DNA of 64,000 bases from Indolivaga capnocytophagoides DSM 22835 (GTDB taxonomy: Bacteria > Bacteroidota > Bacteroidia > Bacteroidales > Dysgonomonadaceae): the NCBI RefSeq assembly GCF_000426485.1, contig NZ_AUFL01000014.1, positions 62,001-126,000 of the forward strand, given 5' to 3'. The notes beneath the pieces are model-generated. The model saw nothing but the letters and a program-made list of their open reading frames with translations, was not told the DNA's origin and searched no databases. Below, in pieces: positions 17,130-39,396 of this stretch. A program made the position numbers and the translations under genes. How positions within the stretch are numbered: position 1 is the first letter of the stretch; the number at the start of each line of letters is the position of its first letter.

Positions 17130-17138
17130 TATAATACT

Positions 17139-20985: not shown

Positions 20986-22764
20986 CTAGATAGGCTGAGT
21001 CTTTGCTTTCAGCCATTCTGTTTCAGCATCTTCCAGATAGGGTGATAACTTATTGTATACTTCGGTATGATAGTTATTCAGCCAAGTAACCTCATCGTCT
21101 GTAAGCATCTCTTTGATGATAGGAGTTGTGTCTATCGGGCAAAGAGTGATAGTTTCGAATGAATAGAAATCTCCGAACTCTGTCTTTTTATAAAGTTGAG
21201 TTCTCATAAGGTTTTCGGTACGTACTCCGTATTTGTTGTCTCGGTATATACCCGGTTCATTGGATGTTATCATTCCTATATAGATATTCACCGGATTTAT
21301 TTCGGGGCGAATGCTATGAGGGCCTTCATGTACACTCAGATAATGACCTATTCCATGACCTGTGCCATGAAGGAAATTGATACCTTCTTTCCACATCGCT
21401 TGACGTGCCAGAATATCTATTTGAGAGCCTCTTGTTCCCTGAGGAAATACAGCAGAAGTCAGCCCGATGTGACCTTTCAGAACCAGGGTGTAATCTCGTT
21501 TCATATCATCCGAAACAGCACCTACAGCTACTGTACGGGTTATATCTGTTGTGCCGTCAAGATATTGTGCCCCCGAATCAATCAGAAGTAAACCTACAGC
21601 TTTTACACTAAGACAATTGTCTGCTGTCGGATGATAATGATTAAGCGCACCGTTGGCTGCATATCCTGCAATAGTACAGAAGCTCTCTCCTGCAAAGTTC
21701 TCTTGTTTACTGCGATATTCAACCAATTTTTTGCCGATATTGTATTCAGTGACCATCCCTTTAGGAACAGCAGCTTCCAGCCATCTGAAAAAATGAACAA
21801 GAGCTACTCCGTCACGTACCATTGCCCGCCCGAATCCTTCTGTTTCTACATCATTCTTAATACTCTTCATCAAATCGGCAGGAGACAGCATATCTACTAT
21901 TCTGCAATGCTTAGGAATAGCATTATACAGACTATAACTGATCTTATTAGAGTCGATACAAACTGAGCCTTTTAGAGTCTGAGCGAAGCTATATATTTCA
22001 TCATAAGGCTTTACTGTGACTCCTTGTTCTTTGAGATACGTCTGGATAGTATCATCTAATTTATAAGAGTCTATAAATAAGATCGTTTCGGTACGTGATA
22101 CATAGGCATACGATACAACTACCGGATTGTAAATGACGTCATTTCCTCTCAGATTAAATATCCATGCTATAGTATCGAGGGTACTTACCAGCAAAGAGTC
22201 TGCTCCTGTTTTTTCGATAGAGTCAGCAATGCGGGCTATTTTTTCTTTAGCTGATTCTCCAGTATATTTTTCGGGATGGATAAACGCTTTTCCTTTTGGT
22301 ATGTCAGGACGCTCGGCCCATATCGAGTCGAAAGGGTCTGTGCTGTTTATCAAAGATATACCTTTCGGAGTCAATATTCTGATCAGATCTTGAGCCTCTT
22401 TTGCCGCATATACTTTTCCGTCAATTCCTACATTATCTCCATTCGATAATTCATCGATCAGCCAATCAGGAATCAAAGGTGTTTCCGGCAATCTTGCTTT
22501 GAATAATTTGATTTCTGATCCGGCTAATTCGCTTTCAGCCTGAAGAAAATAACGGGAATCTGTCCATAAGCCAGCCTTATCCATTGTTATCACAGCTATA
22601 CCTGCCGATCCTGTAAATCCGCTTATCCACATTCGTGATTCCCAATGTGCGGCGGGATATTCACTCAGATGCGGATCAGTTGTCGGAATTATAAATGCCT
22701 GTAAATTATGTTCTTTCATAAATTGCCTCAATAGGGCAATTTTGTTGTTGGGCGGATTATTCAT
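20986..22764 (-). CDS. Xaa-Pro aminopeptidase (M24B, long form)
   Basis: A 592-residue three-domain aminopeptidase P resembling eukaryotic APP1. It removes an N-terminal residue that is followed by proline. The creatinase-like pita-bread domain carries two metal Asp in LLIDSGAQYLDGTTDITRT, His in HGTGHGIGHYLSVHEGPH, and Glu in TSNEPGIYRDNKYGVRTEN. There is no signal peptide, so it acts in the cytosol. The ATG overlaps the TGA of the upstream S9 peptidase gene (ATGA), so the two are translationally coupled. A signal-bearing dipeptidyl peptidase coupled to a cytosolic X-Pro enzyme suggests stepwise use of proline-rich peptides. A second, shorter family member is encoded at 45090-46463. Confidence 0.93.
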   Translation of the reverse strand: MNNPPNNKIALLRQFMKEHNLQAFIIPTTDPHLSEYPAAHWESRMWISGFTGSAGIAVITMDKAGLWTDSRYFLQAESELAGSEIKLFKARLPETPLIPDWLIDELSNGDNVGIDGKVYAAKEAQDLIRILTPKGISLINSTDPFDSIWAERPDIPKGKAFIHPEKYTGESAKEKIARIADSIEKTGADSLLVSTLDTIAWIFNLRGNDVIYNPVVVSYAYVSRTETILFIDSYKLDDTIQTYLKEQGVTVKPYDEIYSFAQTLKGSVCIDSNKISYSLYNAIPKHCRIVDMLSPADLMKSIKNDVETEGFGRAMVRDGVALVHFFRWLEAAVPKGMVTEYNIGKKLVEYRSKQENFAGESFCTIAGYAANGALNHYHPTADNCLSVKAVGLLLIDSGAQYLDGTTDITRTVAVGAVSDDMKRDYTLVLKGHIGLTSAVFPQGTRGSQIDILARQAMWKEGINFLHGTGHGIGHYLSVHEGPHSIRPEINPVNIYIGMITSNEPGIYRDNKYGVRTENLMRTQLYKKTEFGDFYSFETITLCPIDTTPIIKEMLTDDEVTWLNNYHTEVYNKLSPYLEDAETEWLKAKTQPI

Positions 22765-24974
22765 TGTTCGTTCCAGTTTGGAGTAGGTAGTCCTATAAGA
22801 TTCTTCACAAAGAAATCACGGCGTTTACGTTCTCCGTATGTTTCTCCGAGGGTATGTCTTGCTCCCGGCAGTATAACAAAATCGAATTCTTTATTGCTTT
22901 GTTGCAGGGCATTTACTACTTGTAAAGTAGATGAAGGATCAACATTATTGTCCAACTCTCCTAATATCAGCATCAGCTTTCCTTTCAGCAGATGTGCATT
23001 TACCACATTCGAGCATTCTTCGTACTCTTTGCCGATAGGATATCCCATCCATTGTTCATTCCACCAGATTTTATCCATTCGGTTGTCGTGGCATCCGCAA
23101 GCAGCCACTGCCACTTTATAAAATTCGGGATGGAAAAGTACTGCTCCCATGCTGTTTTGTCCTCCGGCCGAGCCTCCGTAGATGCCAACTCTGGTAATAT
23201 CCATTTCAGGGTATTTGTCAGCGGCAGATTTCATCCATGCTATGCGGTCGGGAAATCCTGCGTCTTTCAGATTTTTCCAGCATACATCATGAAAAGCTTT
23301 CGATCGGTTGGCAGTTCCCATTCCATCTATCATAACCACAATAAATCCGAGTTCAGTTAAATGGCTCGGACGATGAGCCAGAGCAAAAGATTTTGGAACG
23401 TGAGAATCATGAGGTCCTGCATAAATATACTCTATCACGGGATATTTCTTATTCGGATCGAAATTATTCGGACGGATTATCATCCCCCAGATATCTGTTT
23501 TACCATCACGTCCTTTAGCTGAGAATACTTCGGGCATACGCCATCCGGCAGCTAATGCTTCTTTTATATCAGGTTGGAATATTGTACGGATGATTTTTCC
23601 GTCCTTCGCCGATCTTAATACAGTTGTCGGAGGAAGATCGGTACGAGAATAAGTATCCACCATATACGCATAGTCTGAACTGAATGTTACGTTGTGATTC
23701 CCATTTTCAGGGGTTAAGGCTTTGATGTTTCCATTGTCTATATTCAGAAGGTAATATTTTTCGAGATAAGGATCTTCTCCCGCATCCATCCCGCATCCTT
23801 TAAACAGGATAGTCCGTTTACTTTCATCTACATGTACCACATTTTTAACAACCCACTCTCCCTTAGTCAATTGTTTTTTTACTTTTCCGGTCGGTACGTC
23901 GTACAGATAGATATGTCTCCATCCGTCTCGTTCCGATATCCAGAGTAGTTCTTTTTCGTTTTCGAACCAGTGCTCATATACTGCATTGTAATAGATAAAC
24001 GTGTTACTTTGTTCATTTACAATTGTTCGCAGCTGATCTGATTGAATGTTTCCTCCGTAAATAACGTATTGTTGATGTCCCCGTTTATTGAAATGAAATG
24101 AAAAAGACGTACTGCTTTTATCCCATCGGATGTTATTAAGGTCGAATTGAGCATCTACATCAGGAACGTTATATTCAACAGATCGTTTTCCATCAATAAA
24201 GAATAGCACCGGTCTTCTTATTGGTAATGCGTCTCCAGGTTTCGGATAGTCATATTCTTCGGTTTTTGGCTGCAGCTGGTCTTTTGGTGAGGATGATATC
24301 AGCAGCAATTTTCTGACTTCTGCAGGACGATATTTACAGCAGATAATTTTCTTAGAGTCTGGAGACCAATAAATATTCGATGAGTAATAGTCGTACACCG
24401 AGCCATCGGTACTGATCGCTTTCGCTTGTCCTGTTGCGATATTGCGTATCCACAGATTGCCTTCGTTGATATATGCTTCGTTAATGCCATCGGGCGATTT
24501 GATTTTTTCTTTGCTGTTTTCTCGATATACACCTCCCCAGTAAGAATCTTCGGGGATTGCAGCTCCTTTTATGATTTTGTAATCAGCCAGGGTACACAGG
24601 TATTCTTGTTTATCAATAATAAATGACAGTGTATCGGTTCCTGCGAATCGAATTTTCTGAAATGGCAACTGGTACGCTTTAATCTCTTTATGCAGAAATG
24701 TTTCCAGTGAAAGAGCCAGACGTTTTTGATCGAATGCCGGAGTGGGTTCTTGTTTTTTTTCGGCATCGAGCAAGAAAAACTCTTTTCCGTTGGCTGTACG
24801 AGCCGAATACCAGAACTTAGGACTGTTTTTGATAGCTTCGATATCAGATAAACCTCGTGACATCGAACTGTATTTCGTATAGAACGAATCGGCTTTCTGA
24901 TAGAGTTCTTTCATATCTTGCCCTTGTGATAATAGGGGGTATACGGCAAGAAGTGCGATAATTAATCTTTTCAT
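22761..24974 (-). CDS. S9 family peptidase, dipeptidyl-peptidase IV-like, periplasmic
   Basis: A 737-residue serine peptidase with a cleavable signal peptide (ending about LLSQGQDM). A DPP IV N-terminal beta-propeller (about 90-480) precedes an alpha/beta-hydrolase domain. The catalytic triad is visible as Ser in YGGSAGGQ, Asp in LGELDNNVDPSS and His in LPGARHTLG. The nucleophile elbow is GGSAGG rather than the GWSYGG usual in true DPP IV, so strict dipeptide release after Pro is uncertain. It is the first gene of a two-gene unit with the aminopeptidase P, with its own upstream region. It lies next to, but is probably transcribed separately from, the GH127 locus. Confidence 0.88.
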   Translation of the reverse strand: MKRLIIALLAVYPLLSQGQDMKELYQKADSFYTKYSSMSRGLSDIEAIKNSPKFWYSARTANGKEFFLLDAEKKQEPTPAFDQKRLALSLETFLHKEIKAYQLPFQKIRFAGTDTLSFIIDKQEYLCTLADYKIIKGAAIPEDSYWGGVYRENSKEKIKSPDGINEAYINEGNLWIRNIATGQAKAISTDGSVYDYYSSNIYWSPDSKKIICCKYRPAEVRKLLLISSSPKDQLQPKTEEYDYPKPGDALPIRRPVLFFIDGKRSVEYNVPDVDAQFDLNNIRWDKSSTSFSFHFNKRGHQQYVIYGGNIQSDQLRTIVNEQSNTFIYYNAVYEHWFENEKELLWISERDGWRHIYLYDVPTGKVKKQLTKGEWVVKNVVHVDESKRTILFKGCGMDAGEDPYLEKYYLLNIDNGNIKALTPENGNHNVTFSSDYAYMVDTYSRTDLPPTTVLRSAKDGKIIRTIFQPDIKEALAAGWRMPEVFSAKGRDGKTDIWGMIIRPNNFDPNKKYPVIEYIYAGPHDSHVPKSFALAHRPSHLTELGFIVVMIDGMGTANRSKAFHDVCWKNLKDAGFPDRIAWMKSAADKYPEMDITRVGIYGGSAGGQNSMGAVLFHPEFYKVAVAACGCHDNRMDKIWWNEQWMGYPIGKEYEECSNVVNAHLLKGKLMLILGELDNNVDPSSTLQVVNALQQSNKEFDFVILPGARHTLGETYGERKRRDFFVKNLIGLPTPNWNEQ

Positions 24975-25025
24975 TTATTCTCTGTTTTTGATAAAAGTCT
25001 CTGGCTTTATATATATTTCGTACCG

Positions 25026-25176: not shown

Positions 25177-25228
25177 ATAAGAATCTCGGGTTGTTTTACT
25201 TTCCAAAGAAATAAACAGATCAGCAACC

Positions 25229-27646
25229 TTATTTTACTTCGAATTCATAAATGCCGATAGATTCTTTTACAGGCAATTGTACTGAAAGGCGTACAAATTT
25301 AGCGGAGACAGGCTCAAACTCTATTTGATTTTTCACGTCTTTCTCGCTTTTGTAGCTGCCTTTTGTTTTTACATCCAGCCATTGTCCGTTGGCATCCTGA
25401 TACTGAACTTTCCACGACAGAGGTATACGGCAGCCTCCCCAAGGTGCATCGTCATACCAATATACAAATGCAGAGGAAAATGTTTCGGGCTTATCGAATT
25501 CGTATGTTACCCATTCTTCCGAATTATTTTTTGGCCACAAAGAGTAAAATGGAACATGACGGTCGTTTGAATTATCAGGCCAGTATCCGTCGTTAACACT
25601 GCTCAGCGATTTGTTGGGAGCCGAAGATGTTACCTTGGCACTTGTGCAAATAGTAGGTGGGGGTAGGGGACGTGTGCGCTCTTTCGTACGGGGTATCCAT
25701 ACAGCCATTTCTCCTGCACCCCTGTTGGCCCATGCGTAGTAAGGGATAGCTGTCAGATGTTTATTTTCGATTATGACTTCGTTATCATCTCCCCTTCGCG
25801 CGCTTTTGGCATCAGCTTCGAGGCGTACTATTCCATTCAATTCGTCCGGTATAAATGATGCTGTTATCGGAACATTATCTTCAAGTACAGCATTAAGAAC
25901 CTTGTCTTGATTATCAGGCCATTCTAGACAATATACAATGGGACCCCGTTCTAAAGACACCTTTCCTCTGTCGTCTTCTACTTTATCGTTGGCTAAAGTG
26001 CGGTGAACATCCATCGGGAAGTCGACCACTATATTATCTCCTTTTTTCCATTTTCTGGAAATTGCGATATATCCGTTTGGCGATACAGTATTATCTGTTT
26101 CAACTCCGTTTACCTTTATTTTTACAGTCTCTTTTTTCGGATTCAGATAACTGTATAAATCACTGGGTACGGGCTGATTCTGTACCCATCCCGGTACACG
26201 GACAAGTACTTCGAATGTCTCTGCCTTTTTAGGATCAATAGTTATTGATACATTACCATCCCAAGGATAACCAGTCTTTTGGGCTATTTTTATATCGTTC
26301 TTATTGAGTTCTATATCCGATTCGCTTTCGATAAATAGATTTACATAGATTTTATTGTCTTTTTTAGCGTATACGTATCCGGGGATAGATGGCATAAAAC
26401 GGCAAACGTTACTGGGGCAGCAAGCGCAGCCGAACCATTCACTGCGTCCGTGCTGTCCGACCGATTCCAACGGATTGGGATAAAAGAAATGATCACCCGA
26501 AAGGCTTATTCCTGAAATCAGACCATTGTAAAGCGTCCGTTCCAATACATCATAGTATTTAGAATCTCCATGAAGAAGGAACAAACGATGGTTCCAGTAT
26601 ACATTGGCGATTGCAGCACATGTTTCGCAATAAGCCGACATATTGGGTAGTTCGTAATTCTTACCGAAGGCCTCTCCATGACCTGTAGCACCGATACCAC
26701 CTGTGATGTAATATTTTTTAGTCACTACATTGTCCCAGATATTATCTATGGCATGTAAGTAGGCACTGTTTCCGGTCAATGCGGCAACATCTGCCATCCC
26801 TGAATACATATAAGCTGCACGTACAGCATGCCCTACAGCTTCATCCTGCTCTATTACAGGTTTATGGGTCTGGCTGTATTCTCCGCTTTCGCCATGACCT
26901 CTCAGGTCTAGGAAGTATTTCGCCAGATCAAGGTATTCTTTTTTTCCTGTTACTCGATACATCTTTACAAGACCCATTTCTACAATCTGATGTCCGGGCT
27001 CGTAAGCCAATTTTCCGGGACCGAAGTCCTTTACCAGCAAATCTGCATTTTTGATTGCTACATCAAGCAGAGTTCTTTTACCTGTAGCCTGATAATGTGC
27101 TACAGCTGCTTCATACAAGTGTCCGCAGTTATAAAGTTCGTGGCTCAGGTCAGGATCTTTTTCCCAGCGTTTTGCTCCTACCCATTCATGGAGTTTTCCT
27201 GGTTCGGCAGCTGTTCGTGCGGTAAAAAGGTATCCGTCAGGTTCTTGTGCCTTCTGTATATAATAGATAAGAGTATCCATGCGAGCTTCCAAATCTTTAT
27301 TCGGATACATTTGTATCGAATACGACATGCCTTCGAGTATTTTGTAAATATCGGTATCGTCAAATGTGAATTGGGTATCGAAATATCCCGGCATAAGACC
27401 TCCTGCCTTTTTAAAATTGTCAACACGTCCTGTTATATAACATTGTTTCAGAGCGATGGGTATAGTTACGTCCTGATTGGTTTTTATACGTGGTGCCCAA
27501 AATTTATCCGAAAATTTAACCGAAACGAAAGATACCGGCTGTATCGGATAATCTTTCTGGGTCGTTTGCTGCTCGTGATGGGTGTGTGCTGCTGCCGAAA
27601 TAATGGGCAGTAATGCCAGCAGAAGACATAAGCGAAGCTTTTTCAT
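25229..27646 (-). CDS. GH127 beta-L-arabinofuranosidase-family enzyme with C-terminal discoidin-like domain
   Basis: An 805-residue secreted protein (signal ending about ISAAAHTHH). The (alpha/alpha)6-barrel DUF1680/GH127 domain covers about residues 35-650. Zinc-site and nucleophile residues known from HypBA1 are all present: Glu and Cys in AYCETCAAI near 341, and the Cys pair in FGCACCPSN near 408, where one Cys is the nucleophile. VPYYAWANRGAGEMAVW closes the catalytic unit. Residues of about 680-805 form a discoidin/CBM32-like sandwich ending SIGIYEFEVK. HypBA1 releases arabinose from beta-1,2-linked arabinofuranosides of hydroxyproline-rich proteins. Other members act on arabinan ends or aceric acid of RG-II, so the substrate is inferred. 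It starts 14 nt after the GH43 gene. Confidence 0.93.
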   Translation of the reverse strand: MKKLRLCLLLALLPIISAAAHTHHEQQTTQKDYPIQPVSFVSVKFSDKFWAPRIKTNQDVTIPIALKQCYITGRVDNFKKAGGLMPGYFDTQFTFDDTDIYKILEGMSYSIQMYPNKDLEARMDTLIYYIQKAQEPDGYLFTARTAAEPGKLHEWVGAKRWEKDPDLSHELYNCGHLYEAAVAHYQATGKRTLLDVAIKNADLLVKDFGPGKLAYEPGHQIVEMGLVKMYRVTGKKEYLDLAKYFLDLRGHGESGEYSQTHKPVIEQDEAVGHAVRAAYMYSGMADVAALTGNSAYLHAIDNIWDNVVTKKYYITGGIGATGHGEAFGKNYELPNMSAYCETCAAIANVYWNHRLFLLHGDSKYYDVLERTLYNGLISGISLSGDHFFYPNPLESVGQHGRSEWFGCACCPSNVCRFMPSIPGYVYAKKDNKIYVNLFIESESDIELNKNDIKIAQKTGYPWDGNVSITIDPKKAETFEVLVRVPGWVQNQPVPSDLYSYLNPKKETVKIKVNGVETDNTVSPNGYIAISRKWKKGDNIVVDFPMDVHRTLANDKVEDDRGKVSLERGPIVYCLEWPDNQDKVLNAVLEDNVPITASFIPDELNGIVRLEADAKSARRGDDNEVIIENKHLTAIPYYAWANRGAGEMAVWIPRTKERTRPLPPPTICTSAKVTSSAPNKSLSSVNDGYWPDNSNDRHVPFYSLWPKNNSEEWVTYEFDKPETFSSAFVYWYDDAPWGGCRIPLSWKVQYQDANGQWLDVKTKGSYKSEKDVKNQIEFEPVSAKFVRLSVQLPVKESIGIYEFEVK

Positions 27647-29865: not shown

Positions 29866-30678
29866 TTACTTATTACATATATCCAACTTTATATTTTCAG
29901 GAAAATACTGCAACAGAAGATTATAGATATCCGGATCATATTCTTTCAGTTTTTTTGCAGTATTGATAGAATTGTGTACTCCATTAGGCTCGGTCGAATA
30001 TCTATTGCAGTTGAAAAACGATTGTACAGCTTCTGCAAAATATTCATACTTATTGCTGAGGGCATATGTGTTTTCCCATAATCCTTTTGCCTTTGCTTTT
30101 TCCATAAGAGCTTCCAATTCTGTGTCGAAATCGGGTTTTACTCCGATGATACCAACAGTATGTACAATGTGGGCAAACTCGTGTACCATTATACTTTCTC
30201 CTTCGTATCTGTCTCCGGGCATGCACATAACGTTTTCTTCGCCGAAGCTTGCGCTGTAGTCATCTTCGGGAGCACCGCCGAAACCTCTTGCCCGTTTGTT
30301 CCAGTAGGCAGTACTGTCGGGGGTACATATTTTTGCATATTCGGGCAGATCACAGACTTCTTCCGTTGCACCTATTATCATTACACGACAGCCTTTGGAT
30401 ACCATGTAGTCTTTTACATCCGGACGCTTCGACAGCATTTGTAGAATAACGGTTCGTGTTCGTTCTAATGCTTCATCGCAGACTTTATCGGATGATACAA
30501 CAGGTAAGCCTTCGGCATTGAGATATTTTTTATAGAAAGGGGCTAATCCCAAAGAATCCGGAACAGTCGATACTTTTTCGGAAGCAGCAGATGCCTGCTG
30601 TTCTTTTTTATTCGAACAGCAGACAAAAGCCAACATTGAAATAAGTAATATTGAGTTTAATAAAAGTGGTTTAATCAT
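29866..30678 (-). CDS. Lipoprotein zinc metallopeptidase-like protein (HEFAH), unassigned family
   Basis: A 270-residue lipoprotein (lipobox FVCC, then SNKKEQQ). The motif ESIMVHEFAHIVH, near residue 167, is a zincin HExxH. NKYEYFAEAVQSFFN, about 45 residues later, supplies a candidate third-ligand Glu, which fits the gluzincin layout. The segment DVKDYMVSKGCRVMIIG upstream looks like the alpha/beta lead-in of anthrax lethal-factor-like peptidases; this is only a resemblance. The gene is embedded between two glycosidase genes of one operon, 26 nt after the GH127 stop. A secreted peptidase here suggests a glycoprotein substrate. An inactive or structural role is possible, and I cannot name the family with confidence. 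Confidence 0.78.
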   Translation of the reverse strand: MIKPLLLNSILLISMLAFVCCSNKKEQQASAASEKVSTVPDSLGLAPFYKKYLNAEGLPVVSSDKVCDEALERTRTVILQMLSKRPDVKDYMVSKGCRVMIIGATEEVCDLPEYAKICTPDSTAYWNKRARGFGGAPEDDYSASFGEENVMCMPGDRYEGESIMVHEFAHIVHTVGIIGVKPDFDTELEALMEKAKAKGLWENTYALSNKYEYFAEAVQSFFNCNRYSTEPNGVHNSINTAKKLKEYDPDIYNLLLQYFPENIKLDICNK

Positions 30679-30704: not shown

Positions 30705-33164
30705 TTATGGATTTACTTTCCATTCTATTACACCTCCCGAATATCCTTTACGTCCTACATCTACGACCTGAGGTCCATTTTCTTCCGCTGCTTTTTCGGT
30801 TTTAGGTCGTTGAAGTTGTACCACCATTTTCAGTTCGGTTGTAGTTACGGGTTCGAAAGAAACTTTGTTGTATTTATCCAATTCCGTTCCATAGGGAGAT
30901 GTATTTTTCACTTCTTTCCATGTATTTCCGGTTTTATATAAAAGTTTCCATGATTCGGGGGCTTTATAAATGACATCGTAGTGATCAAATGCGAGCCAAT
31001 ATACTTCTACACTCGAAATCCGCTCGGGCTTTTTGAATTTATAGCCGATAGACTCTTCTGTTCCCGCCTTCAGCCACCAGTAATGGTATGGAGTGTTTAT
31101 GTCATCGGATGATGTCGGTTCAAACTGATCATTGAAGCCCCATCCGTCTACAGGCATTGCTGCGGATGCTATTGTAGGTTCGGGTTTTACTATTGCGTAT
31201 TCTTTTGTAGCAGGAGTCCATACTACCATCTGTCCTATACCCCGGTTGTTCCATGTAGAGTATGGAATAGCCTTGAATGTAAGAGGCTTTTCTATTAACT
31301 TTCCACTGGCAGAATCTTTTTCTACGGCAAAGGCATTTCCTTCGAGAACTACGACTCCGTTTAACAGGTTCTTTTCGAAGTGAGACTCTATTTTCGAATC
31401 ACGCGGAATAACTATATCAAAAATATAATCGCGTTTCTGGTCTATACTTTCCAGCGCATACAGTATCGGTCCCTTTTCCATGGCAAGCAAACCTTTGTCG
31501 TATCTAACCTGCGGATTTGCTTCTACCCTGCGGACGGGCATGTCCATCGTTAAAGTTACCTTATCTCCTTTTTTCCATTCACGTTCTATAACCCAGTAAC
31601 CGGCACGTGTATGTTTTTTTGTTTCGCTTCCGTTTACAAGCACTTTTACCTGAGGGTTCGATCCGTCTACATAAGCATATAGATCAGAAGGTACAGGCTT
31701 ATTCTTAGCCCAACCCGGAATGCGTACCAAGAGTGTGAATTTATCATTTTTATTGGGCGTCACATCTATTTCTACATCTCCATTCCAAGGGTATTGTGTT
31801 TTTTGTACTAACTCAACTTCGGTATCTCCTACTTTCAATTTGGAATTCCCTCCCACGAATAAGTTTACATATACGTCTTTTTTGTCGATGGCATATACAT
31901 ATCCCGGAACCGATGCCATAAAACGGGTTACGTTACCGGGGCAGCATGCACATCCGAACCATTGTTGACGGGCATGTCCTCCGGGGGTACCCATCGGGTT
32001 ATCGTAAAAGAACTTGTCGCCGCTGAGTGATACTCCGGCTATCAGTCCATTGTATAGGGTGCGTTCCAGTACATCTATGTATTTGGAGTCTCCTGTTGCG
32101 AGGAACATGCGTTGATTCCAATATACATTGGCGATAGAAGCACATGTTTCACAATAGTTATTGAAGTTATTCAATTCATAATTGGGGCCGAAACCTTCTC
32201 CCTGCGGACGGGAACCGATACCTCCGTTCAGATATAGCTTTTTACTTGCCATGTTTTCCCATACACGATTGACTGCATCGAATAGTTTTTTGTCGTGCTG
32301 TAATGATGCTACATCCGTCACCCCAGAGAACAGATAACCTGCACGGACGGCATGACCTACGATCTCATCCTGATCTATGATCGGTTTGTGATCCTGGCTA
32401 TAAGGACTTAGTTTGTGTCCGTCTGTACCTCGCCCGGTTTCGTCTACAAAGTAGCGAGCCATCTTCAGGTATTTCTCATCATCGGTTACATTATACAGTT
32501 TAGCCAAAGCCATTTCGATAATTGGGTGACCCGAGGGGACATGTTTCTGACCTTCGTTGGGACCGAAAACCTGACATACTAAGTCTGCATTTTTGATTGC
32601 TACATTCAACAATGTTTTTTTTCCGGTAGCTTTGTAATGTGCTACGGCCGCTTCATATAAGTGACCGCTGTTGTACAATTCGTGGCTGTTGATCTTTTCC
32701 CAGCGCGAACTTCCCCACCAGCCTGATAAACGGGTACATTTATTGGTTACGCAGGTTGTAAGGTATCCGTCGGGTTCTTGAGCCGCTGCAATTAAGGTTA
32801 TTACACTATCGAGGTATGCATCCAGTTTGGGGTCGTATTTGACAGCCAAAGAATAAGATGCTCCTTCGATGATCTTATAAGGATCGGTGTCATCGAATGA
32901 AAAATCACCTTTGTGTTCGCCTTTGATAAGTCCTCCCGCCAGAGCGAAATTATCGAAACGTCCATTTATTTCGCATTGATGAAATGCCGAGGGAATTGAA
33001 ACTGTTCGGTTGATTTCCATGCGAGGCAGCCAGAAGTCATCCGTAAAATGAACATCCGTAAAAGGTACTTCCTTTATTTCACCCAATTGTACTTTCGATT
33101 TTTCTTCTGTTGCACCACAGCTTATCAAGGTTAAAGTTAATAGGATTGTCGCTAATCTTTTCAT
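30705..33164 (-). CDS. GH127 beta-L-arabinofuranosidase-family lipoprotein (second copy)
   Basis: An 819-residue lipoprotein (lipobox LISC, then GATEEK). It has the same GH127 architecture as the downstream copy: EVPFTDVHFTDDFWLPR start, Glu/Cys in NYCETCASI, the Cys pair in FGCACCPGN, and IPYSTWNNRGIGQMVVW near the end of the barrel. It also has a C-terminal discoidin-like domain ending GGVIEWKVNP. The two copies clearly differ in sequence, so they probably divide labour (for example different linkage positions) rather than being a recent duplication. The leader holds the WAGGTCTGAGACCTT palindrome 17 nt before the ATG, and the intercistronic gap after SusD is rich in hairpins. Confidence 0.93.
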   Translation of the reverse strand: MKRLATILLTLTLISCGATEEKSKVQLGEIKEVPFTDVHFTDDFWLPRMEINRTVSIPSAFHQCEINGRFDNFALAGGLIKGEHKGDFSFDDTDPYKIIEGASYSLAVKYDPKLDAYLDSVITLIAAAQEPDGYLTTCVTNKCTRLSGWWGSSRWEKINSHELYNSGHLYEAAVAHYKATGKKTLLNVAIKNADLVCQVFGPNEGQKHVPSGHPIIEMALAKLYNVTDDEKYLKMARYFVDETGRGTDGHKLSPYSQDHKPIIDQDEIVGHAVRAGYLFSGVTDVASLQHDKKLFDAVNRVWENMASKKLYLNGGIGSRPQGEGFGPNYELNNFNNYCETCASIANVYWNQRMFLATGDSKYIDVLERTLYNGLIAGVSLSGDKFFYDNPMGTPGGHARQQWFGCACCPGNVTRFMASVPGYVYAIDKKDVYVNLFVGGNSKLKVGDTEVELVQKTQYPWNGDVEIDVTPNKNDKFTLLVRIPGWAKNKPVPSDLYAYVDGSNPQVKVLVNGSETKKHTRAGYWVIEREWKKGDKVTLTMDMPVRRVEANPQVRYDKGLLAMEKGPILYALESIDQKRDYIFDIVIPRDSKIESHFEKNLLNGVVVLEGNAFAVEKDSASGKLIEKPLTFKAIPYSTWNNRGIGQMVVWTPATKEYAIVKPEPTIASAAMPVDGWGFNDQFEPTSSDDINTPYHYWWLKAGTEESIGYKFKKPERISSVEVYWLAFDHYDVIYKAPESWKLLYKTGNTWKEVKNTSPYGTELDKYNKVSFEPVTTTELKMVVQLQRPKTEKAAEENGPQVVDVGRKGYSGGVIEWKVNP

Positions 33165-33327: not shown

Positions 33328-34782
33328 TCATGGAGTAAATACCGGATCCGTTGTAGGATTGGGGTTCTGTACCATATCAGAGTTATTAATGACTTCTTTT
33401 TCGGGTATCATCATTATTAACTTATTCGAATTCGCAGGAACGGATACATCATAGTAAAAACCCATTTCTTTAGTTTTAGTTACTGACTTCTGTAATCTCA
33501 TCACATCGAAGTAATCAAGACCTTCTCCCCACATTTCTTTTCGTCTTTCGAGAAGAATTTCATCTATCAATGCATCTTTTGCAGTCACAGTTGAAACTTT
33601 GGCTCCTCTTTCTTTTTGGAGCTTGTTTAGTACTTGCAGGGCAGTTCCTGTATCGTTTTGTCTTGCAGCAGCTTCTGCTTCTACTAAATACATTTCTGCA
33701 GCACGCATATCAAACAGATCTCCGTATGGACCAGAATCTTTGAGTTCCCGAAATTTTGTTGATGCATATTTATCGCTGTAGAGGGGATTGACAATCGTTA
33801 AATTTCGAGGGTCGTCTTTCATTATTCCTTCCACAAAATGTTTTACAGGAATAAATAATTCGGCCTGCCATGGAGAATTGTTCTGCCCGAAGTCATACCA
33901 GCACGCATGAGAATCGTACCACCAATAATCCTGACTAGTTTGTATATACCCAACTACCCATTCTTTATTAACAGTCGAGAATCCGGCTTTATATTCATCC
34001 ATCGACATCAGCGAATATGATGTTGTTATATAATGGGCGTATTTTTCGGCATTAGCCCAATCGTTCATGGTCAGATAAACATTTGCCAAGAGAAAACGTA
34101 CAACGTCTATGTTATAATAATCCTTTGTCGGGCGTGTATATTTTGTCAATAAAGTTTCTGCTTCGGTCAAGTCGTCTACAATTTGTTTATATACTTCGGC
34201 AACAGTCGCCCGGGCTTTAGGAGTAAGAGTCGGTTCCAGATAGACCGGTACTCCCGGTTTATCTTTAGCAATAATGTAAGTATGCTGATAAAAACGCACC
34301 AGATTGAAATAGCATCGAGAGCGTATTGCCAAAGCTTGTCCTTTGATCTCATCCTTAGCATCCAGATCTCCGCTTACATTGTCAATATTTGCTAATACAA
34401 TATTTGCATTGCTTATTATCTTATACATGGCATTCCACATATTGATAGGGATGGGTTGTGTAGCATCGTAACGTTGCATGCTAAAGGTAGTAAAATACCA
34501 GAAATCTCCCACCTGTTCATCATTAATCATAATGTCTATACCTGTAGTTGTGGATAATGCCATAATTCCTTCCGGACTGTACACATTAGGACCATAACCA
34601 GCTCCATCTCGCATAAGTCTGTATGTTCCTAATAATTCGGATCTTAATCCGGCGACACTGGTTATGATTTGCGAATCAGACAATGATCCTGTAGGGGATG
34701 TATTCAGAAAATCATCGCATCCTGACATAGTCAGTAATGTAGATCCTAACAGGAAAGTGTATAATATATTTCTAATTTTCAT
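33328..34782 (-). CDS. SusD/RagB-family surface glycan-binding lipoprotein
   Basis: A 484-residue outer-membrane lipoprotein (lipobox TMSGC, then DDFLNTSPTG, the usual SusD start). The helical SusD_RagB fold is supported by AIRSRCYFNLVRFY (TPR region) and the C-terminal EILLERRKEMWGEGLDYFDVMRL. It forms the lid of the SusC barrel and captures oligosaccharides or glycopeptides for import. It is shorter than many SusD proteins but within range. It lies directly after susC; the leader motif overlaps the susC stop codon. Confidence 0.95.
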   Translation of the reverse strand: MKIRNILYTFLLGSTLLTMSGCDDFLNTSPTGSLSDSQIITSVAGLRSELLGTYRLMRDGAGYGPNVYSPEGIMALSTTTGIDIMINDEQVGDFWYFTTFSMQRYDATQPIPINMWNAMYKIISNANIVLANIDNVSGDLDAKDEIKGQALAIRSRCYFNLVRFYQHTYIIAKDKPGVPVYLEPTLTPKARATVAEVYKQIVDDLTEAETLLTKYTRPTKDYYNIDVVRFLLANVYLTMNDWANAEKYAHYITTSYSLMSMDEYKAGFSTVNKEWVVGYIQTSQDYWWYDSHACWYDFGQNNSPWQAELFIPVKHFVEGIMKDDPRNLTIVNPLYSDKYASTKFRELKDSGPYGDLFDMRAAEMYLVEAEAAARQNDTGTALQVLNKLQKERGAKVSTVTAKDALIDEILLERRKEMWGEGLDYFDVMRLQKSVTKTKEMGFYYDVSVPANSNKLIMMIPEKEVINNSDMVQNPNPTTDPVFTP

Positions 34783-34811: not shown

Positions 34812-34826
34812 AAGGCCTGAGACCTT
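34812..34826 (+). repeat. Palindromic leader motif copy 3 (between susC and susD)
   Basis: Plus-strand AAGGCCTGAGACCTT with a preceding CAAA tract. It overlaps the susC stop codon and lies 29 nt before the susD ATG. Judged by the central base and A-tract, it is the only leader copy in reverse orientation to the gene it precedes. Confidence 0.65.
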
Positions 34827-37800
34827 AGAATTGAATATTTAGACCAAAGCTGTAAGTCTTTAAGGCAGGAACACCTGATTCTCCATCTATGACACCTCCT
34901 GCCACATTGGTTGCATTGAAGTTTTCGGGGTCTGTTCCATGATTTTTCAATTTGCCGAAAGTCAGCAAATTATCTCCTTTTACATAGAATCTTAAAGAGC
35001 CGATACCCAGTTTTTTGACCAGATCACGCGGAATCGAATAACCTAATACTATATTACGCAGTCTGGCAAAGTTGTTTTTGAAGATAAACTTGTCACTGTA
35101 ACGTGCATATGAGCTGGCATCGAAGCATCGGTAAGTGTATATTTTTGCAACATCTGTAACATCACCCGGTTTCTGCCAGCGGTTATCGAGATAATCGTAA
35201 GCTGCGAAATTTTCTCTTAAGACTGTGCTTTCTGCATAGTTATAATCGTATACTACGCCGCCAAGACTGTAATAAAGCATAACTGACAGGTCGAAATCTT
35301 TGTAACGGAAGTTATTGGTAATACTGCCATAAACATCCGGCAGAGTAGATCCGGCTTTGATACGTTGTTCTGCTACATTGACTTCGCTGTAATTTTCGGT
35401 CTTTTCTTTTCCTGTAATTTTACCGGTTTCATCGAATGTATATTTATACCATCTGTTACGTCCGTTTTCGGGATTGACATCAGCCCATACCGGAGCATAC
35501 AGATCGTAACGTGATGCCCCCTCTTTCCATTTGAATACACCTACACCTACATTAAACGTTTCTTCTTTAGAAGGCAAACGGGTTATTTCATTCTTGTAGT
35601 GAGTTGCATTCAGTCCGATATTCCAATCGAAATCTTTTGTCTTGATAGCATTGTAATTCAGTTCGATCTCCCATCCTGTATTTTTTATGTCTCCGATATT
35701 TTCCATAATCGAAGACATTCCCAATGATGGAGCCAGAGGACGGGATAGCAATAAATCTTTCGACTTGCGGCTGAATACTTCGAATGTACCATTCACCTTA
35801 TTATTAAATATCGAGAAATCAAGGCCTAAATTAGCCTGTACGTTCGTTTCCCATTTGATGTTCTTGTTCGACAATTGGGATTGTACAACTCCGAATTTTC
35901 CTCCATAGCTGCTTGTTTCGAATAATCCCAGATAAGGATAATATCCGACATTATCATTTCCTACTTCTCCATAGCTGGCTTTGATTTTTAGATTGTCCAA
36001 CCACGATTTTGTACTTTTCATAAACGATTCCTCAGTAATACGCCATGATGCCCCTACCGAGTAGAATGTCCCCCAGCGGTTATCGGAAGCGAATCGTGAG
36101 GAGCCGTCGGTACGAATGCTGCCTGATATATAATAGCGGTTTTTAAAATCGTAATTAATACGGGAGAAAAAGCTCGCCAGAGCATAATTGTCGGTACCCG
36201 ACCATGCTGTAGGATCTTCTTCGGCGGTAGATATTTCTGTAAATATCGGAAGGTTTAGACCTTTACGGTATGCCCCGAATCCATTTGTTGTATATTTATA
36301 AGCTTCCTGTCCAAGCATTACATTGAGATGGTGGTCGTTACCTAACACTTTGTCATATACCAGAACATTGTTTATGGTATGTGACGTATTACGGTAAGCT
36401 GCACGAGTTACAGAACCTTCTGCCGGAATGAGAGTTCCTTCTCGTTCGGGGCTTCTCCAGTTATTATTGTATACATTCTGCAACTGGAAAGAATAGGTTG
36501 TTTTTAAAGTCAGTTCGGGAAGAATCGTAAATGTAAGAGCCGAAACGGTCTGAACATTGTCGTTCCAATTTTTGACCCTTTCGTTCAATGCTCCGTAAGG
36601 GCTCCATTTTGGCCACCAGGCACGTCCGTTGTTCCATCCTTCATCCAGTACTTTTCCTCCGGTATATTCACTTACTGCGTATTGATTGTTCTTATGATCC
36701 CACAGGTATGCTGAATATTCCGACGGATACACTCTGAACACACGTGCCGCAAATCCTCCGTTATAGTTAGTGGATGATGCGAACAGGATGCTGTTATCCA
36801 TAGAGAACCATTTACTGAGCTTTGATGTTAATGCTGCACGTCCGGTAAAACGTTTGAAGTGGTCGGCAATGAAAATACCCTTGTCATCCAGCATAGAGAT
36901 AGACATGAAATAGCTGTTCTTATCGCCTAGCGATCCGCTGATATCTACTCCATAATCTTGTTTCAATTTATTAGAAAATGCCTGGTCGAAAAGGTCTTCT
37001 TCCCAAAGCCGTTTTGCATCGGGCTTGATCTTACCGTCTAATCCGACAGGATTATCCATGTTCCAACCTGATCGATACTGACGTACAGTGCCGTCATTGA
37101 GAGTGACGGGTGAAGTGTTCCAAAATACTTTAGTTACATTATCATAGGCATATTGGCGGGCTTGCTGATCGTTCATACTCATGAAGTCGGTTGCGTCATT
37201 ATATAACCCTTCGAAAGTAAGTTCGTATTGTTTGGCTGCAGAAACTTTCTTTGGAAATTTTACAGCAAAATCGCTTGTAGCCCAGCTTGCCCTTAGGTTT
37301 ATGGTTGTTTTTCCTGATTTACCTTTTTTTGTTGTGATGAGTATTACTCCATTTCCTGCTCTTGATCCGTATAACGATGTCGAAGCAGCATCTTTAAGTA
37401 CTGTGATTGATTCAATATCCGAATAAGAAATTGAATTGAGGGGAATGTCTGACGGCACACCATCTATTACATACAGCGGGCTGCTATTGGCTGTCATAGA
37501 ACCCAATCCGCGAATTACTACAGTACCATCATCACCGGGGCGTCCCGAATTATTTATAACCTGTACTCCTGCGGATAAACCTTGTAGTCCTTGGGTAATA
37601 TTGACGGGTTGTAAAGCCTCCAGTTTTTTATCACTGACGATGGACGCAGAACCTGTAAACGATGATTTCTTTTGCGAGCCGTATGCAGTAACAATAACTT
37701 CATCAAGTTCTTCCGAGTTATCCGTTAGTTCTATTGTCAGAGTTTTTCGACCATTTAATGCAATATCCTGGCTGACATATCCCACATAAGTGATAGAGAG

Positions 37801-38076
37801 TGCTGCGTTTGGGTTGGATACAGCAAGGACGAATTTTCCATCAAGATCAGTAGTTGTTCCGGTGGATGTACCTTTTTCTTTAACTGATACTCCGATAAGA
37901 GGTTCACCTTGATTATCGGTGATTGTTCCCGACACCGAACTTTTGGTTTGCTGAATCTCTGTGATATGAGCGGCATAGCTGTTTGCTGGGTATGCCAATG
38001 ACAATAAAGTCATACATGACAGTGCTGTCACATTCAAAAAGACTTTGTCTTTAAATTTCAATTGTTTTCGATTCAT
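34825..38076 (-). CDS. SusC/RagA-family TonB-dependent transporter
   Basis: A 1083-residue outer-membrane receptor. The order is: signal (to about SYAAH), carboxypeptidase-like regulatory domain (VSGTITDNQGEPLIGVSVKE), TonB box region (DEVIVTAYGSQ), plug (VNITQGLQGLSAGVQVINNSGRPGDD and PLYVIDGVPSD), and a 22-strand barrel ending KTYSFGLNIQF. The carboxypeptidase-like N-terminal domain is typical of SusC. It imports the ligand captured by SusD into the periplasm using TonB energy. It is followed by susD after 42 nt. The imported substrate is inferred to be arabinosylated oligosaccharides or glycopeptides from the enzymes around it. Confidence 0.97.
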   Translation of the reverse strand: MNRKQLKFKDKVFLNVTALSCMTLLSLAYPANSYAAHITEIQQTKSSVSGTITDNQGEPLIGVSVKEKGTSTGTTTDLDGKFVLAVSNPNAALSITYVGYVSQDIALNGRKTLTIELTDNSEELDEVIVTAYGSQKKSSFTGSASIVSDKKLEALQPVNITQGLQGLSAGVQVINNSGRPGDDGTVVIRGLGSMTANSSPLYVIDGVPSDIPLNSISYSDIESITVLKDAASTSLYGSRAGNGVILITTKKGKSGKTTINLRASWATSDFAVKFPKKVSAAKQYELTFEGLYNDATDFMSMNDQQARQYAYDNVTKVFWNTSPVTLNDGTVRQYRSGWNMDNPVGLDGKIKPDAKRLWEEDLFDQAFSNKLKQDYGVDISGSLGDKNSYFMSISMLDDKGIFIADHFKRFTGRAALTSKLSKWFSMDNSILFASSTNYNGGFAARVFRVYPSEYSAYLWDHKNNQYAVSEYTGGKVLDEGWNNGRAWWPKWSPYGALNERVKNWNDNVQTVSALTFTILPELTLKTTYSFQLQNVYNNNWRSPEREGTLIPAEGSVTRAAYRNTSHTINNVLVYDKVLGNDHHLNVMLGQEAYKYTTNGFGAYRKGLNLPIFTEISTAEEDPTAWSGTDNYALASFFSRINYDFKNRYYISGSIRTDGSSRFASDNRWGTFYSVGASWRITEESFMKSTKSWLDNLKIKASYGEVGNDNVGYYPYLGLFETSSYGGKFGVVQSQLSNKNIKWETNVQANLGLDFSIFNNKVNGTFEVFSRKSKDLLLSRPLAPSLGMSSIMENIGDIKNTGWEIELNYNAIKTKDFDWNIGLNATHYKNEITRLPSKEETFNVGVGVFKWKEGASRYDLYAPVWADVNPENGRNRWYKYTFDETGKITGKEKTENYSEVNVAEQRIKAGSTLPDVYGSITNNFRYKDFDLSVMLYYSLGGVVYDYNYAESTVLRENFAAYDYLDNRWQKPGDVTDVAKIYTYRCFDASSYARYSDKFIFKNNFARLRNIVLGYSIPRDLVKKLGIGSLRFYVKGDNLLTFGKLKNHGTDPENFNATNVAGGVIDGESGVPALKTYSFGLNIQF

Positions 38077-38090
38077 TTTTCATTTGATTT

Positions 38091-38105
38091 AAGGTCACAG
38101 ACCTA
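38091..38105 (-). repeat. Palindromic leader motif copy 4 (before susC)
   Basis: Coding-strand TAGGTCTGTGACCTT, one mismatch from consensus, 14 nt before the susC ATG and followed by AAATC. Confidence 0.65.
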
Positions 38106-38123
38106 TTTATTTATCAGTGAACG

Positions 38124-38159
38124 AGTAAACAAGTTGAATACATTTTACACTTGCTTACT
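38124..38159 (-). other. Hairpin spanning the GH27 stop codon
   Basis: AGTAAACAAGT (38124-38134) and ACTTGCTTACT (38149-38159) pair at 10 of 11 positions. It covers the GH27 stop and the GH27-susC gap, so it could limit read-through between them. Confidence 0.4.
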
Positions 38160-39396
38160 TATTTAGCCTGTAGAATAGGCTTTCGTGAGGTTCGAGGGTC
38201 TTTTTCAGTCTCGTTTGAGTATCACCTTCATTTTGATGAGTCCAAACATTGCGTACGGTTCTGGGAGAGCGTTTCATATAAAGTGCTCCGTTTTCGAGGT
38301 CACTGTCATAGACGGTATCCATGTTCCAGTCATAGTCCAGGTCAATTTTGAAATTATTACGGTTAATAAATAAGAATGCTGCATCGCCGCCTGACAACGG
38401 CTTTACGAGAATATCTATGCCATTCAGATGCAGGTATCTGAATGCTGAGCGTCCCAGCTTATCCTGATTGATCGCTATGGCTTCTTTGTTGGTTAATAAT
38501 TCTTTTGTGAATGAGTCCATTTCTCTCAAGTCGTTTCCTGCCATTAGAGGTGCAGCCATTATACACCAGATAGCAAAGTGAGATTTGTACTCGGTTTGAG
38601 TTTGTCCGCCATTTCCGATTTCGAGCATTTCGAGATCGTTCCAATGTCCCGGTCCTGAATGTTTATCTATCGTCATGGCCTTGTCTAATATTTGCAGAAC
38701 GCCGACTCCGCCCCAGTTGAACTGGCAGTCGAAACAATCGCGGATATCGGCTGTTATCCGCCAAAGATGTCCGATGCCTTTACCCCACTCCCAAGGTTTG
38801 TTTTCTCCCCACTCACAAATGCTGAATACAATAGGGCGTCCAGATGCTTTCAGTGCATCGCTCATTGTTTTATAAGCCGATTTGGCATCCTGATCTTCGT
38901 TATAGCACCAATCGTATTTAAGATAATCTACTCCCCATTCGGCGTACTGGCGCGCATCCTGAAACTGATATCCTCTGCTGCCCGGTCTCCCCTGACAGGT
39001 AAGGCTGCCTGCGCATGAGTATATTCCGAATTTTAAACCTAAACTGTGAATGTAATCTGCTACCGGTTTCATTCCATTCGGAAAATGTTCGGGATCTACT
39101 ATTATATTTCCGTTTTTGTCTCGTCCGGTTTGCCAGCAGTCATCAATAACTACATATTCATAACCTGCGCTTTTCATACCAGATGATACCATGGCATCTG
39201 CCATTTCTTTTATAAGTTTTTCGCTTACCCGGCATCCGAATTTATTCCAGCTGTTCCATCCCATGGGTGGAGTTTGTGCTAATTGGTCGAAAGTATTTTC
39301 GCCAGATTTGTCTTTGGTTCCGAATTCTTGTTGACAATACCCCGACAGGGTAATCAAAAATAAACTTGTTGTTAATAATATTTCTTTTAATTTCAT
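38155..39396 (-). CDS. GH27 alpha-galactosidase / beta-L-arabinopyranosidase
   Basis: A 413-residue secreted (beta/alpha)8-barrel enzyme (signal ending LSGYCQQ). TPPMGWNSWNKFGC is the GH27 start; YEYVVIDDCWQ, LKYDWCYN (nucleophile Asp) and ITADIRDCFDC (acid/base Asp) are present. A C-terminal beta-sandwich follows. GH27 contains alpha-galactosidases and beta-L-arabinopyranosidases, which sequence reading alone does not separate here. Both fit: extensins carry alpha-galactose on serine, and arabinogalactans carry arabinopyranose. It is the most upstream gene of the minus-strand locus and is divergent from HTCS2. Confidence 0.92.
   Translation of the reverse strand: MKLKEILLTTSLFLITLSGYCQQEFGTKDKSGENTFDQLAQTPPMGWNSWNKFGCRVSEKLIKEMADAMVSSGMKSAGYEYVVIDDCWQTGRDKNGNIIVDPEHFPNGMKPVADYIHSLGLKFGIYSCAGSLTCQGRPGSRGYQFQDARQYAEWGVDYLKYDWCYNEDQDAKSAYKTMSDALKASGRPIVFSICEWGENKPWEWGKGIGHLWRITADIRDCFDCQFNWGGVGVLQILDKAMTIDKHSGPGHWNDLEMLEIGNGGQTQTEYKSHFAIWCIMAAPLMAGNDLREMDSFTKELLTNKEAIAINQDKLGRSAFRYLHLNGIDILVKPLSGGDAAFLFINRNNFKIDLDYDWNMDTVYDSDLENGALYMKRSPRTVRNVWTHQNEGDTQTRLKKTLEPHESLFYRLNK

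Follow-up and report, generated by a model that had tools for sequence, protein, structure and literature searches.

A probable utilization locus for arabinosylated, hydroxyproline-rich plant glycoproteins in Indolivaga capnocytophagoides

Introduction

Extensins and related proteins form a cross-linked, resistant fraction of dietary plant walls, and the use of their protein part by anaerobes is little described. The trans-4-hydroxy-L-proline dehydratase HypD is a known gut enzyme, and to our knowledge the source of its plant-derived substrate is unexplained. A gene cluster of the gut-type bacterium Indolivaga capnocytophagoides DSM 22835 raises the question of whether one locus could serve for using both the sugar and the peptide of such glycoproteins. 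The cluster occupies positions 20986-39396 of the window, by which we mean the whole 64,000-nt stretch that was analysed, and a first-pass annotation had read it as a possible complete system for dismantling extensins. We consider it probable that this is a locus of the polysaccharide utilization (PUL) type directed at arabinosylated, hydroxyproline-rich plant cell-wall glycoproteins of the extensin type.

The closest known system is that of Bifidobacterium longum, HypBA1/HypBA2/HypAA (GH127/GH121/GH43), with a counterpart in Xanthomonas euvesicatoria; the same source describes hypBA2 and hypAA homologs as absent from intestinal bacteria such as Bacteroides (PMC6085000). No earlier description of a locus like the present one was found in the literature searched for hydroxyproline, extensin or HRGPs in combination with PULs, Bacteroides/Prevotella or peptidases, with subscription papers and preprints outside the scope of the search.

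Gene content and layout of the locus

Nine minus-strand genes were confirmed by ORF and Pfam profile checks, in the order GH27, SusC, SusD, GH127, HEFAH lipoprotein, GH43, GH127, DPPIV-type S9 peptidase and X-Pro aminopeptidase, so that the GH27, multidomain GH43, SusC/SusD and HEFAH lipoprotein genes named by the first-pass annotation are all in place. The SusC-type TonB-dependent transporter (34825-38076, minus; TIGR04056, 813 bits against a cut-off of 368) adjoins a SusD-type surface lipoprotein (33328-34782, minus; PF14322 and PF07980 above cut-off), and glycosidases lie alongside. A divergent hybrid two-component sensor (HTCS; 40069-44106, plus; Reg_prop, Y_Y_Y, HisKA, HATPase_c, Response_reg and HTH_18) is linked to the locus and is its probable dedicated regulator. 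The SusC/SusD pair, the divergent HTCS and the secreted glycosidases are shared with other Bacteroidota PULs that carry an HTCS. The present type differs from those PULs in the recurrence of a dipeptidyl peptidase (DPP) and of a zinc peptidase predicted to lie at the surface, and in the amino-acid catabolic genes of some relatives, namely those for HypD and P5C dehydrogenase (P5CDH).

A terminator-like hairpin of 13 pairs (20979-20947) stands directly past the last gene of the locus, and a weaker one of 6 pairs lies between SusC and SusD; the scan gave 27 such matches against 15.9 expected, and the promoter model of the terminator/promoter scan is unsuited to this phylum. The 254-nt gap between the GH127 and DPP genes contains no minus-strand terminator-like match.

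Glycosidases and their possible targets

Both GH127 beta-L-arabinofuranosidase-type enzymes, a predicted lipoprotein (30705-33164, minus; signal judged by eye; PF07944, 363 bits) and a protein with an F5/8C domain (25229-27646, minus; PF07944, 380 bits), combine the family profile with the Glu-x-Cys and Cys-Cys motifs expected of this activity; the first-pass annotation had already pointed to the HypBA1 catalytic Cys pair. In the former, the motifs CETCA and GCACCP align with those of HypBA1 (3wkw), and the latter contains both strings too. The nucleophile of GH127 is a cysteine (PMC10850190). We propose that these enzymes would release L-arabinose from Ara-Hyp. The GH43 protein (27661-29754, minus; PF04616, 169 bits), which has F5/8C and LamG domains, is proposed to be an alpha-L-arabinofuranosidase, and the GH27 protein (38155-39396, minus; PF16499, 256 bits) is of the alpha-galactosidase type.

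Like the B. longum system, the locus pairs GH127 enzymes bearing both cysteine motifs with a GH43, and the proposed product is likewise arabinose from Hyp-linked arabinooligosaccharides. Unlike that system, it has no GH121: searched against the nine ORFs of the locus plus the HTCS, the HypBA2 model NF041578 gave no match beyond the F5/8C part of a single GH127 (24 bits against a cut-off of 3200). It also adds an alpha-galactosidase and proline-type peptidases, and has SusC/SusD where an ABC transporter is described for B. longum (PMC7263609).

An arabinan and arabinose operon adjoins the locus (7007-20262), comprising an HTCS, GH43, GH51, GH43 and araR/araD/A/B/transporter/galM; its L-arabinose catabolic part (13060-20262, plus) encodes an araD-like aldolase, araA, an araB-like kinase, an SSF symporter and galM. 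This neighbourhood fits an accessory role for the locus in pectic arabinan or RG-I/RG-II use, as a PUL in which GH127 and GH43 trim arabinose decorations and the peptidases are bystanders. GH127 proteins act on pectic structures too, and the best NCBIfam model for both is aceric acid hydrolase, at 483 and 476 bits, below the cut-off of 950; the solved structure closest to the GH43 is 5msx (220 bits), which we take to be an enzyme of an RG-II locus. We nevertheless regard a pectic target as unlikely. Pfam found neither a polysaccharide lyase nor any other enzyme for pectic backbones among the nine genes, the arabinan operon has a separate HTCS of its own, and the ties to peptidases recur in relatives, as HEFAH-GH97 and HEFAH-DPP fusions and as HypD and P5CDH neighbours.

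Arabinogalactan proteins (AGPs), with both their sugar side chains and their protein core, could also be the target in place of extensins. AGP cores are hydroxyproline-rich too, and the solved structure closest to the GH127 at 25229-27646 is 6ex6 (797 bits), presumably BT3674. BT3674 works with galactanases on larch arabinogalactan (PMC10850190). However, Pfam found no galactanase, rhamnosidase or glucuronidase family member among the nine genes, the GH43 being placed at family level only, and the alpha-galactosidase types that recur (GH27, GH97) better suit the Ser-linked galactose of extensins. An AGP target seems unlikely, slightly less probable than a pectic one, and arabinan, RG-II or AGP side-chain targets would all leave hydroxyproline catabolism unexplained.

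The proline-type peptidases

The HEFAH protein (29866-30678, minus), a predicted zinc-peptidase lipoprotein of an unnamed family, matches no Pfam family above its cut-off. Its HEFAH motif is at residues 166-170, and H166, E167, H170, Y205 and E212 are invariant across 59 sequences; the AF2 model has a mean pLDDT of 88. The HExxH motif and the conserved downstream Tyr may be features in common with PPEP and ATLF/M34 peptidases, and there are weak profile matches. In ATLF/M34 peptidases, HExxH is followed by a catalytic Tyr and a Glu ligand. The protein scores 18.6 bits against ATLF (PF07737), below the cut-off of 27.4, and assignment to ATLF/M34 was rejected for this reason; a sequence profile of 19 rows weakly matches the ATLF-like chain 9g0j (E=0.047). 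As for PPEP, the Tyr follows the first His by 39 residues in HEFAH and by 37 in PPEP-3 (His153, Tyr190; PMC12828418). A fold search gave no match at E<=0.001, the best being the collagenase peptidase domain 4ar9 (E=0.02), and PPEP was not named among the first 50 of 198 matches; the search was thus not accepted as proof of kinship with PPEP. We propose the HEFAH protein as a candidate endopeptidase for the Pro/Hyp-rich backbone.

The DPPIV-type S9 gene (22761-24974, minus; PF00930, 172 bits; PF00326, 153 bits) overlaps by 4 nt that of a three-domain M24 X-Pro aminopeptidase (20986-22764, minus; PF16189, PF00557 and PF16188 above cut-off), of which a second copy is present elsewhere in the genome. 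This coupling was as first annotated. The accompanying caveat, that the pair is probably transcribed separately, loses weight: ORF calls for Bacteroides ihuae (L030) put the start of the DPP frame 16 nt past the GH127 frame.

An aminopeptidase P (AMP_N and M24; 45090-46463, minus) is possibly also part of the system, and its homologs adjoin HypD in L098 (Prevotella communis), L062, L159 and L164. It was dropped as a marker: an apparent limitation to HEFAH carriers was seen in nine genomes, yet the gene is present in 306 of 393 genomes.

Gene neighbourhoods in related genomes

The comparison of related genomes proposed with the first-pass annotation drew on the best 80 of 526 HEFAH relatives, and the extensin-type reading, which the outcome might have contradicted, survived it. 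In a quick tree, 14 relatives share a clade (clade A) with the window protein. Within 10 kb, the clade-A loci have GH127 in 13/14, GH43 in 9/14 and DPP in 11/14; a gene fusion joins HEFAH to a GH97 of the alpha-galactosidase type in 8/14 and to DPP in 3/14 (best 80 of 526). Some HEFAH frames (e.g. L094, L102, L113) were dropped by the ORF filter, and those loci were still counted. HEFAH was the bait for clade A, so its presence is no evidence, while that of GH127, GH97 and DPP is. The GH97 of L030, the one tested, scores 675 bits to its nearest match, the retaining alpha-galactosidase 3a24, and 229 bits to an alpha-glucosidase. Neither HypD nor X-Pro aminopeptidase was found in any of the 14 loci (best 80 of 526).

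A second group of 21 relatives, separate from clade A, had aminopeptidase P (X-Pro aminopeptidase) in 17/21, HypD in 15/21, GRE activase in 15/21, P5C dehydrogenase in 9/21 and GH127 in 0/21 (best 80 of 526). All three HypD copies that were tested score above the NF043068 cut-off of 1100 (1256, 1139 and 1162 bits), two P5CDH pass TIGR01236 (752 and 762 bits; cut-off 613.6), and the HypD of L039 scores 1039 bits to HypD itself (6vxc) against 525 to the next solved enzyme. Since HypD is missing from clade A and GH127 from the second group, all the evidence for a link between GH127 and HypD comes from three genomes, in which GH127, DPP and HypD share one stretch (L039, L163 and L161+L162). For example, L161+L162 carries AMP_M24, HTCS, HypD, SusC/D, GH97, DPP and two GH127 inside about 28 kb. 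Of these three genomes, G677 and G327 have GH127 and HypD as adjacent genes, and G400 has them 10-13 kb apart. GH27, DPP and HypD occur together in L166.

Co-occurrence was tested over 393 genomes, with HEFAH taken from 17 of the 27 genomes with any HEFAH match, the other ten having matches only at E ~1e-6 or weaker. With phylogeny ignored throughout, GH127 lay <=10 kb from HEFAH in 5/17 genomes (0.5 expected, P=8e-5), DPP was present in 10/16 HEFAH genomes against 27/377 others (p=9e-8), DPP lay <=10 kb from HypD in 5/23 (0.15 expected, P=4e-7), and the HypD test minus the weak HEFAH match G640 gave 11/15 (p=0.0016). In a set of 18 HEFAH loci, 7 had a GH127, DPP or M24 match and 11 had none.

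These neighbourhoods bear on one more explanation, in which the peptidases are there for using collagen or proline peptides in general and the GH127 genes became their neighbours by chance. DPP-HypD-M24 operons without glycosidases do exist (L159, L164). Matches to the locus-type DPP (E<=1e-150) occur in 37/393 genomes of the order, own genome counted, and outside the window a gene for GH127, alpha-galactosidase or HypD lies no more than 8 kb away in only 10/37 DPP loci, leaving 27 without, though several of those contigs end sooner; the use of DPP as a universal marker is limited accordingly. In the 45 HEFAH loci outside both groups, GH127 was found in 1, DPP in 3 and HypD in 0 (best 80 of 526). 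A chance association is hard to reconcile with the GH127 and GH97-fusion counts of clade A, and the second group points to a plant diet: 7/21 record titles name a ruminant gut site and 10/21 bear RUG names (best 80 of 526), which we take to denote rumen genomes. We consider this explanation very unlikely.

Conclusions

The gene set, the conserved catalytic motifs and the recurrent linkage of glycosidases to proline-type peptidases, in some relatives with HypD and P5C dehydrogenase, are evident at the level of sequence. On the extensin-type reading, the surface HEFAH lipoprotein would cleave the Pro/Hyp-rich backbone and SusC/SusD would take up the glycopeptides. The two GH127 enzymes and the GH43 would strip beta- and alpha-linked arabinofuranose, and GH27, or the fused GH97 of relatives, would take off Ser-linked alpha-galactose. 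A periplasmic DPP could then free X-Pro/X-Hyp dipeptides, with cytosolic M24 aminopeptidases completing peptide breakdown, while the released arabinose would feed into the neighbouring araDAB pathway. An arabinosyl or glycopeptide fragment would be the signal for the divergent HTCS.

The first-pass interpretation stands in part. Its core claim, that sugar and peptide of a hydroxyproline-rich glycoprotein are both used, is independently backed: relatives tie the same kinds of peptidases to HypD, its activase and P5C dehydrogenase, and HEFAH to GH97 or DPP by fusion. The claim of a complete system goes further than the evidence, given the missing GH121, the GH43 identified to family only and the absence of X-Pro aminopeptidase from clade A (best 80 of 526). 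HypD was not found in the genome of I. capnocytophagoides itself, its sole relative there being a glycyl radical enzyme 27% identical; it adjoins peptidase relatives elsewhere, and the same-genome HypD that would mark a hydroxyproline-catabolic locus is seen in some of them.

More tentatively, and with somewhat less than even confidence, we suggest that the HEFAH proteins constitute a novel zinc endopeptidase family specialised for hydroxyproline-rich (glyco)proteins, and that in Bacteroidales they mark a class of glycoprotein utilization loci. In this class, sugar removal and proline-specific proteolysis would be inherited as one system, which in many members would also include the radical dehydration of hydroxyproline. 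The extensin-type reading is testable because relatives put the same kinds of genes beside a hydroxyproline-degrading enzyme. A locus class that brings beta-arabinofuranosidases and alpha-galactosidases together with proline peptidases, a new peptidase predicted at the surface and, in part of its members, HypD provides named genes to test, and a substrate is predicted for a family of peptidases to which Pfam devotes no entry. If the suggestion on HEFAH proteins is true, their loci would be the route, so far missing, by which plant cell-wall protein supplies the hydroxyproline used by HypD in the gut and rumen.

Organization of the locus and its surroundings

In this 4.38-Mb Bacteroidales genome, the candidate locus for extensin-type plant glycoproteins runs on the minus strand from 39396 to 20986 in the order GH27, SusC, SusD, GH127, HEFAH (a HEFAH-motif lipoprotein), GH43, GH127, DPP (a DPPIV-type S9 peptidase) and X-Pro aminopeptidase; every gene that the first-pass annotation had named here was found. 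The GH43 carries F5/8C and LamG domains, the last GH127 has an F5/8C domain, and the X-Pro aminopeptidase is a three-domain M24 protein. By ORF coordinates, the gaps from GH27 through the last GH127 are 14-163 nt, 254 nt separate that GH127 from DPP, and the M24 gene shares 4 nt with DPP. A terminator-like hairpin lies 3' of the M24 gene, and none was found on the minus strand of the 254-nt gap. A divergent hybrid two-component sensor (HTCS) starts at 40069, and 45090-46463 encodes another aminopeptidase, of the aminopeptidase P type. At E<=1e-20, this genome has two X-Pro aminopeptidase copies and each of 8 other genomes searched has one.

To the left, a plus-strand operon for arabinan and L-arabinose use (7007-20262) consists of GH43 (7007), GH51-type (8208) and GH43 (10389) genes followed by a NUDIX/AraR-type regulator, an araD-like aldolase, araA, an araB-like kinase, an SSF transporter and galM. 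An HTCS of its own, at 2292-6557, accompanies the operon. Since this operon directly adjoins the GH127 locus, arabinose use is encoded next door, which favours an extensin target and the rival, arabinan, alike. The window also holds thiamine-salvage-type genes (ThiD-like kinase, TenA, ThiM-like kinase; 48067-51202). The stretch 55713-64000 encodes a Kdp potassium transporter, a protein with a KdpD domain, a PAS/HAMP histidine kinase distinct from it, and a response regulator of the sigma-54 type.

The GH127 and HEFAH proteins

The closest solved structure for both GH127 enzymes is 6ex6 (797 and 661 bits), and both are clearly related to HypBA1 (3wkw; 313 and 322 bits), with the Glu-x-Cys and Cys-Cys motifs kept in the enzyme at 30705-33164 when aligned with 3wkw. 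Among NCBIfam models they score highest with that for aceric acid hydrolase, reaching roughly half of its cut-off. Because HypBA1 acts on Hyp-arabinosides, and 6ex6 is presumably the B. thetaiotaomicron enzyme that acts on arabinogalactan, GH127 membership by itself is insufficient to fix the substrate. The published substrates are Ara1-3-Hyp for HypBA1 (PMC6085000) and arabinogalactan for a B. thetaiotaomicron GH127 (PMC10850190).

No Pfam model reached its cut-off with HEFAH: the highest scores came from ATLF, 18.6 bits against a cut-off of 27.4, and M90, 14.9 against 26.2. A 19-row HEFAH profile gave weak matches to ATLF-type chains, namely a lethal factor domain (E 6e-4) and an ATLF-like protein (E 0.047). 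H166, E167, H170, Y205 and E212 are invariant in 59 homologs. The AlphaFold2 model (mean pLDDT 88) had no Foldseek match at E<=0.001, and the top rows, all weaker than that, were a collagenase peptidase domain and M1-type aminopeptidases. HEFAH is predicted to be a zinc endopeptidase of a family without a name, and may act in the manner of a Pro-Pro endopeptidase. The word hydroxyproline is absent from the accessible text of two PPEP papers (PMC12828418, PMC11460543), as is extensin from that of PMC12828418.

In two Planctomycetota records (L123:9986-12244, L081:2540-5458), HEFAH is in frame with a sulfatase or calcineurin-like phosphoesterase domain; the family therefore extends past plant glycoproteins. 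Loci L005-L012 encode 958-984-aa proteins with a distant HEFAH-like stretch; a scan of one of them, L005, showed a TPR protein whose ATLF score of 17.3 bits is below cut-off.

Neighbours of HEFAH in relatives

A HEFAH profile search of 84,980 species genomes gave at least 526 relatives, and the best 80 loci were kept. The window HEFAH groups with 14 of these 80 (clade A; SH-aLRT 99, quick tree). Within 10 kb of HEFAH, these 14 loci have GH127 (13/14), DPP (11/14), DUF6055 (11/14), GH43 (9/14), GH97 (8/14) and aminopeptidase P (2/14), and none has HypD (trans-4-hydroxyproline dehydratase) or X-Pro aminopeptidase. All eight clade-A GH97 domains share one reading frame with HEFAH, and HEFAH and DPP form a single frame in three other members. 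The GH97 of L030 is closest to the retaining alpha-galactosidase 3a24 (675 bits vs 229 for alpha-glucosidase). DUF6055 proteins with an HExxH motif recur near clade-A HEFAH (L048, L049, L050, L051, L052, L055, L056, L058, L059, L060 and L067) and are probably a second, unassigned zinc-peptidase family; the window ORFs gave no DUF6055 match.

Prevotellaceae from ruminants supply many of the 21 Bacteroidales records that make up a second, separate group among the best 80. Here the HEFAH neighbours are aminopeptidase P (17/21), HypD (15/21), GRE activase (15/21) and P5C dehydrogenase (9/21), with GH127 at none of the 21 loci. In Prevotella communis (L098), the called ORFs for HEFAH, aminopeptidase P, HypD and activase form a head-to-tail series of overlapping frames. 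The remaining 45 of the 80 have GH127 once, GH97 once, DPP three times and HypD never. A Prolixibacteraceae locus (L092) carries GH127, M61, DPP, HEFAH, P5C dehydrogenase and aminopeptidase P. At 18 HEFAH loci from the compared genomes, a GH127, DPP or M24 match lies nearby in 7 and none of the three in 11. With kinship ignored, GH127 and HEFAH are less than 10 kb apart in 5/17 genomes vs 0.5 expected.

HypD and the DPP neighbourhoods

The L039 glycyl radical enzyme scores 1039 bits against trans-4-hydroxyproline dehydratase 6vxc (next best 525), three HypD copies tested (1256, 1139, 1162) exceed the NCBIfam NF043068 cut-off of 1100, and two neighbouring dehydrogenases exceed the cut-off of TIGR01236 (P5C dehydrogenase). 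The product of HypD is P5C, so HypD and a neighbouring P5C dehydrogenase form one pathway. Of 393 genomes of the order, 133 have HypD, as do 12 of 16 HEFAH carriers (p=7e-4, ignoring kinship); among the compared genomes, G677 is the only one with HypD beside HEFAH itself.

With the window's DPP instead of HEFAH as bait, 37 of the 393 genomes, our own included, are carriers (E<=1e-150). Ignoring kinship throughout, DPP is found in 10/16 HEFAH carriers vs 27/377 other genomes (p=9e-8), HypD in 23/37 DPP carriers vs 110/356 others (p=2e-4), and the two lie within 10 kb in 5/23 genomes vs 0.15 expected. When the flanks of 37 DPP copies other than the window's were inspected (8 kb either side, as far as the contig extends), GH127 was near 7, HypD near 5 and alpha-galactosidase near 3; 10 copies have at least one of these and 27 have none. 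The most telling case is G400:C2:185001-224800 (L161, L162), with aminopeptidase P, HTCS, activase, HypD, SusC, SusD, GH97, DPP, GH127, M64 peptidase and GH127. Other loci contain GH127, GH43, DPP and HypD (G327), GH27, DPP and HypD (G490), or GH127, DPP, HEFAH, M24, HypD, activase and GH127 (G677). In G400, the two GH127 genes flank a gene (L162:8561-9856) for a member of M64, the IgA peptidase family; zinc peptidases may swap for one another in such loci.

Substrate of the locus

Hyp-arabinoside enzymes have been described for B. longum and Xanthomonas (PMC6085000, PMC10850190). A Latescibacteria study predicted extensin use from GH127 and general peptidases (PMC4454575); its accessible text yielded no linked locus, HEFAH or HypD. 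A system combining beta-arabinofuranosidases with alpha-galactosidases, proline-type peptidases and HypD points to a protein with Hyp-O-arabinose and Ser-O-galactose. Ser-O-galactose is a known extensin decoration. Hyp-O-arabinose is another (PMC6085000). For arabinan or RG-II as the target, HypD would be needless.

The window's own genome has no HypD, and other fates of hydroxyproline are therefore proposed for an extensin user of this kind: it could be excreted, taken by another route, or consumed by community neighbours. Comparative genomic evidence strongly supports the existence of this class of loci, and homology supports placing the window locus within it.
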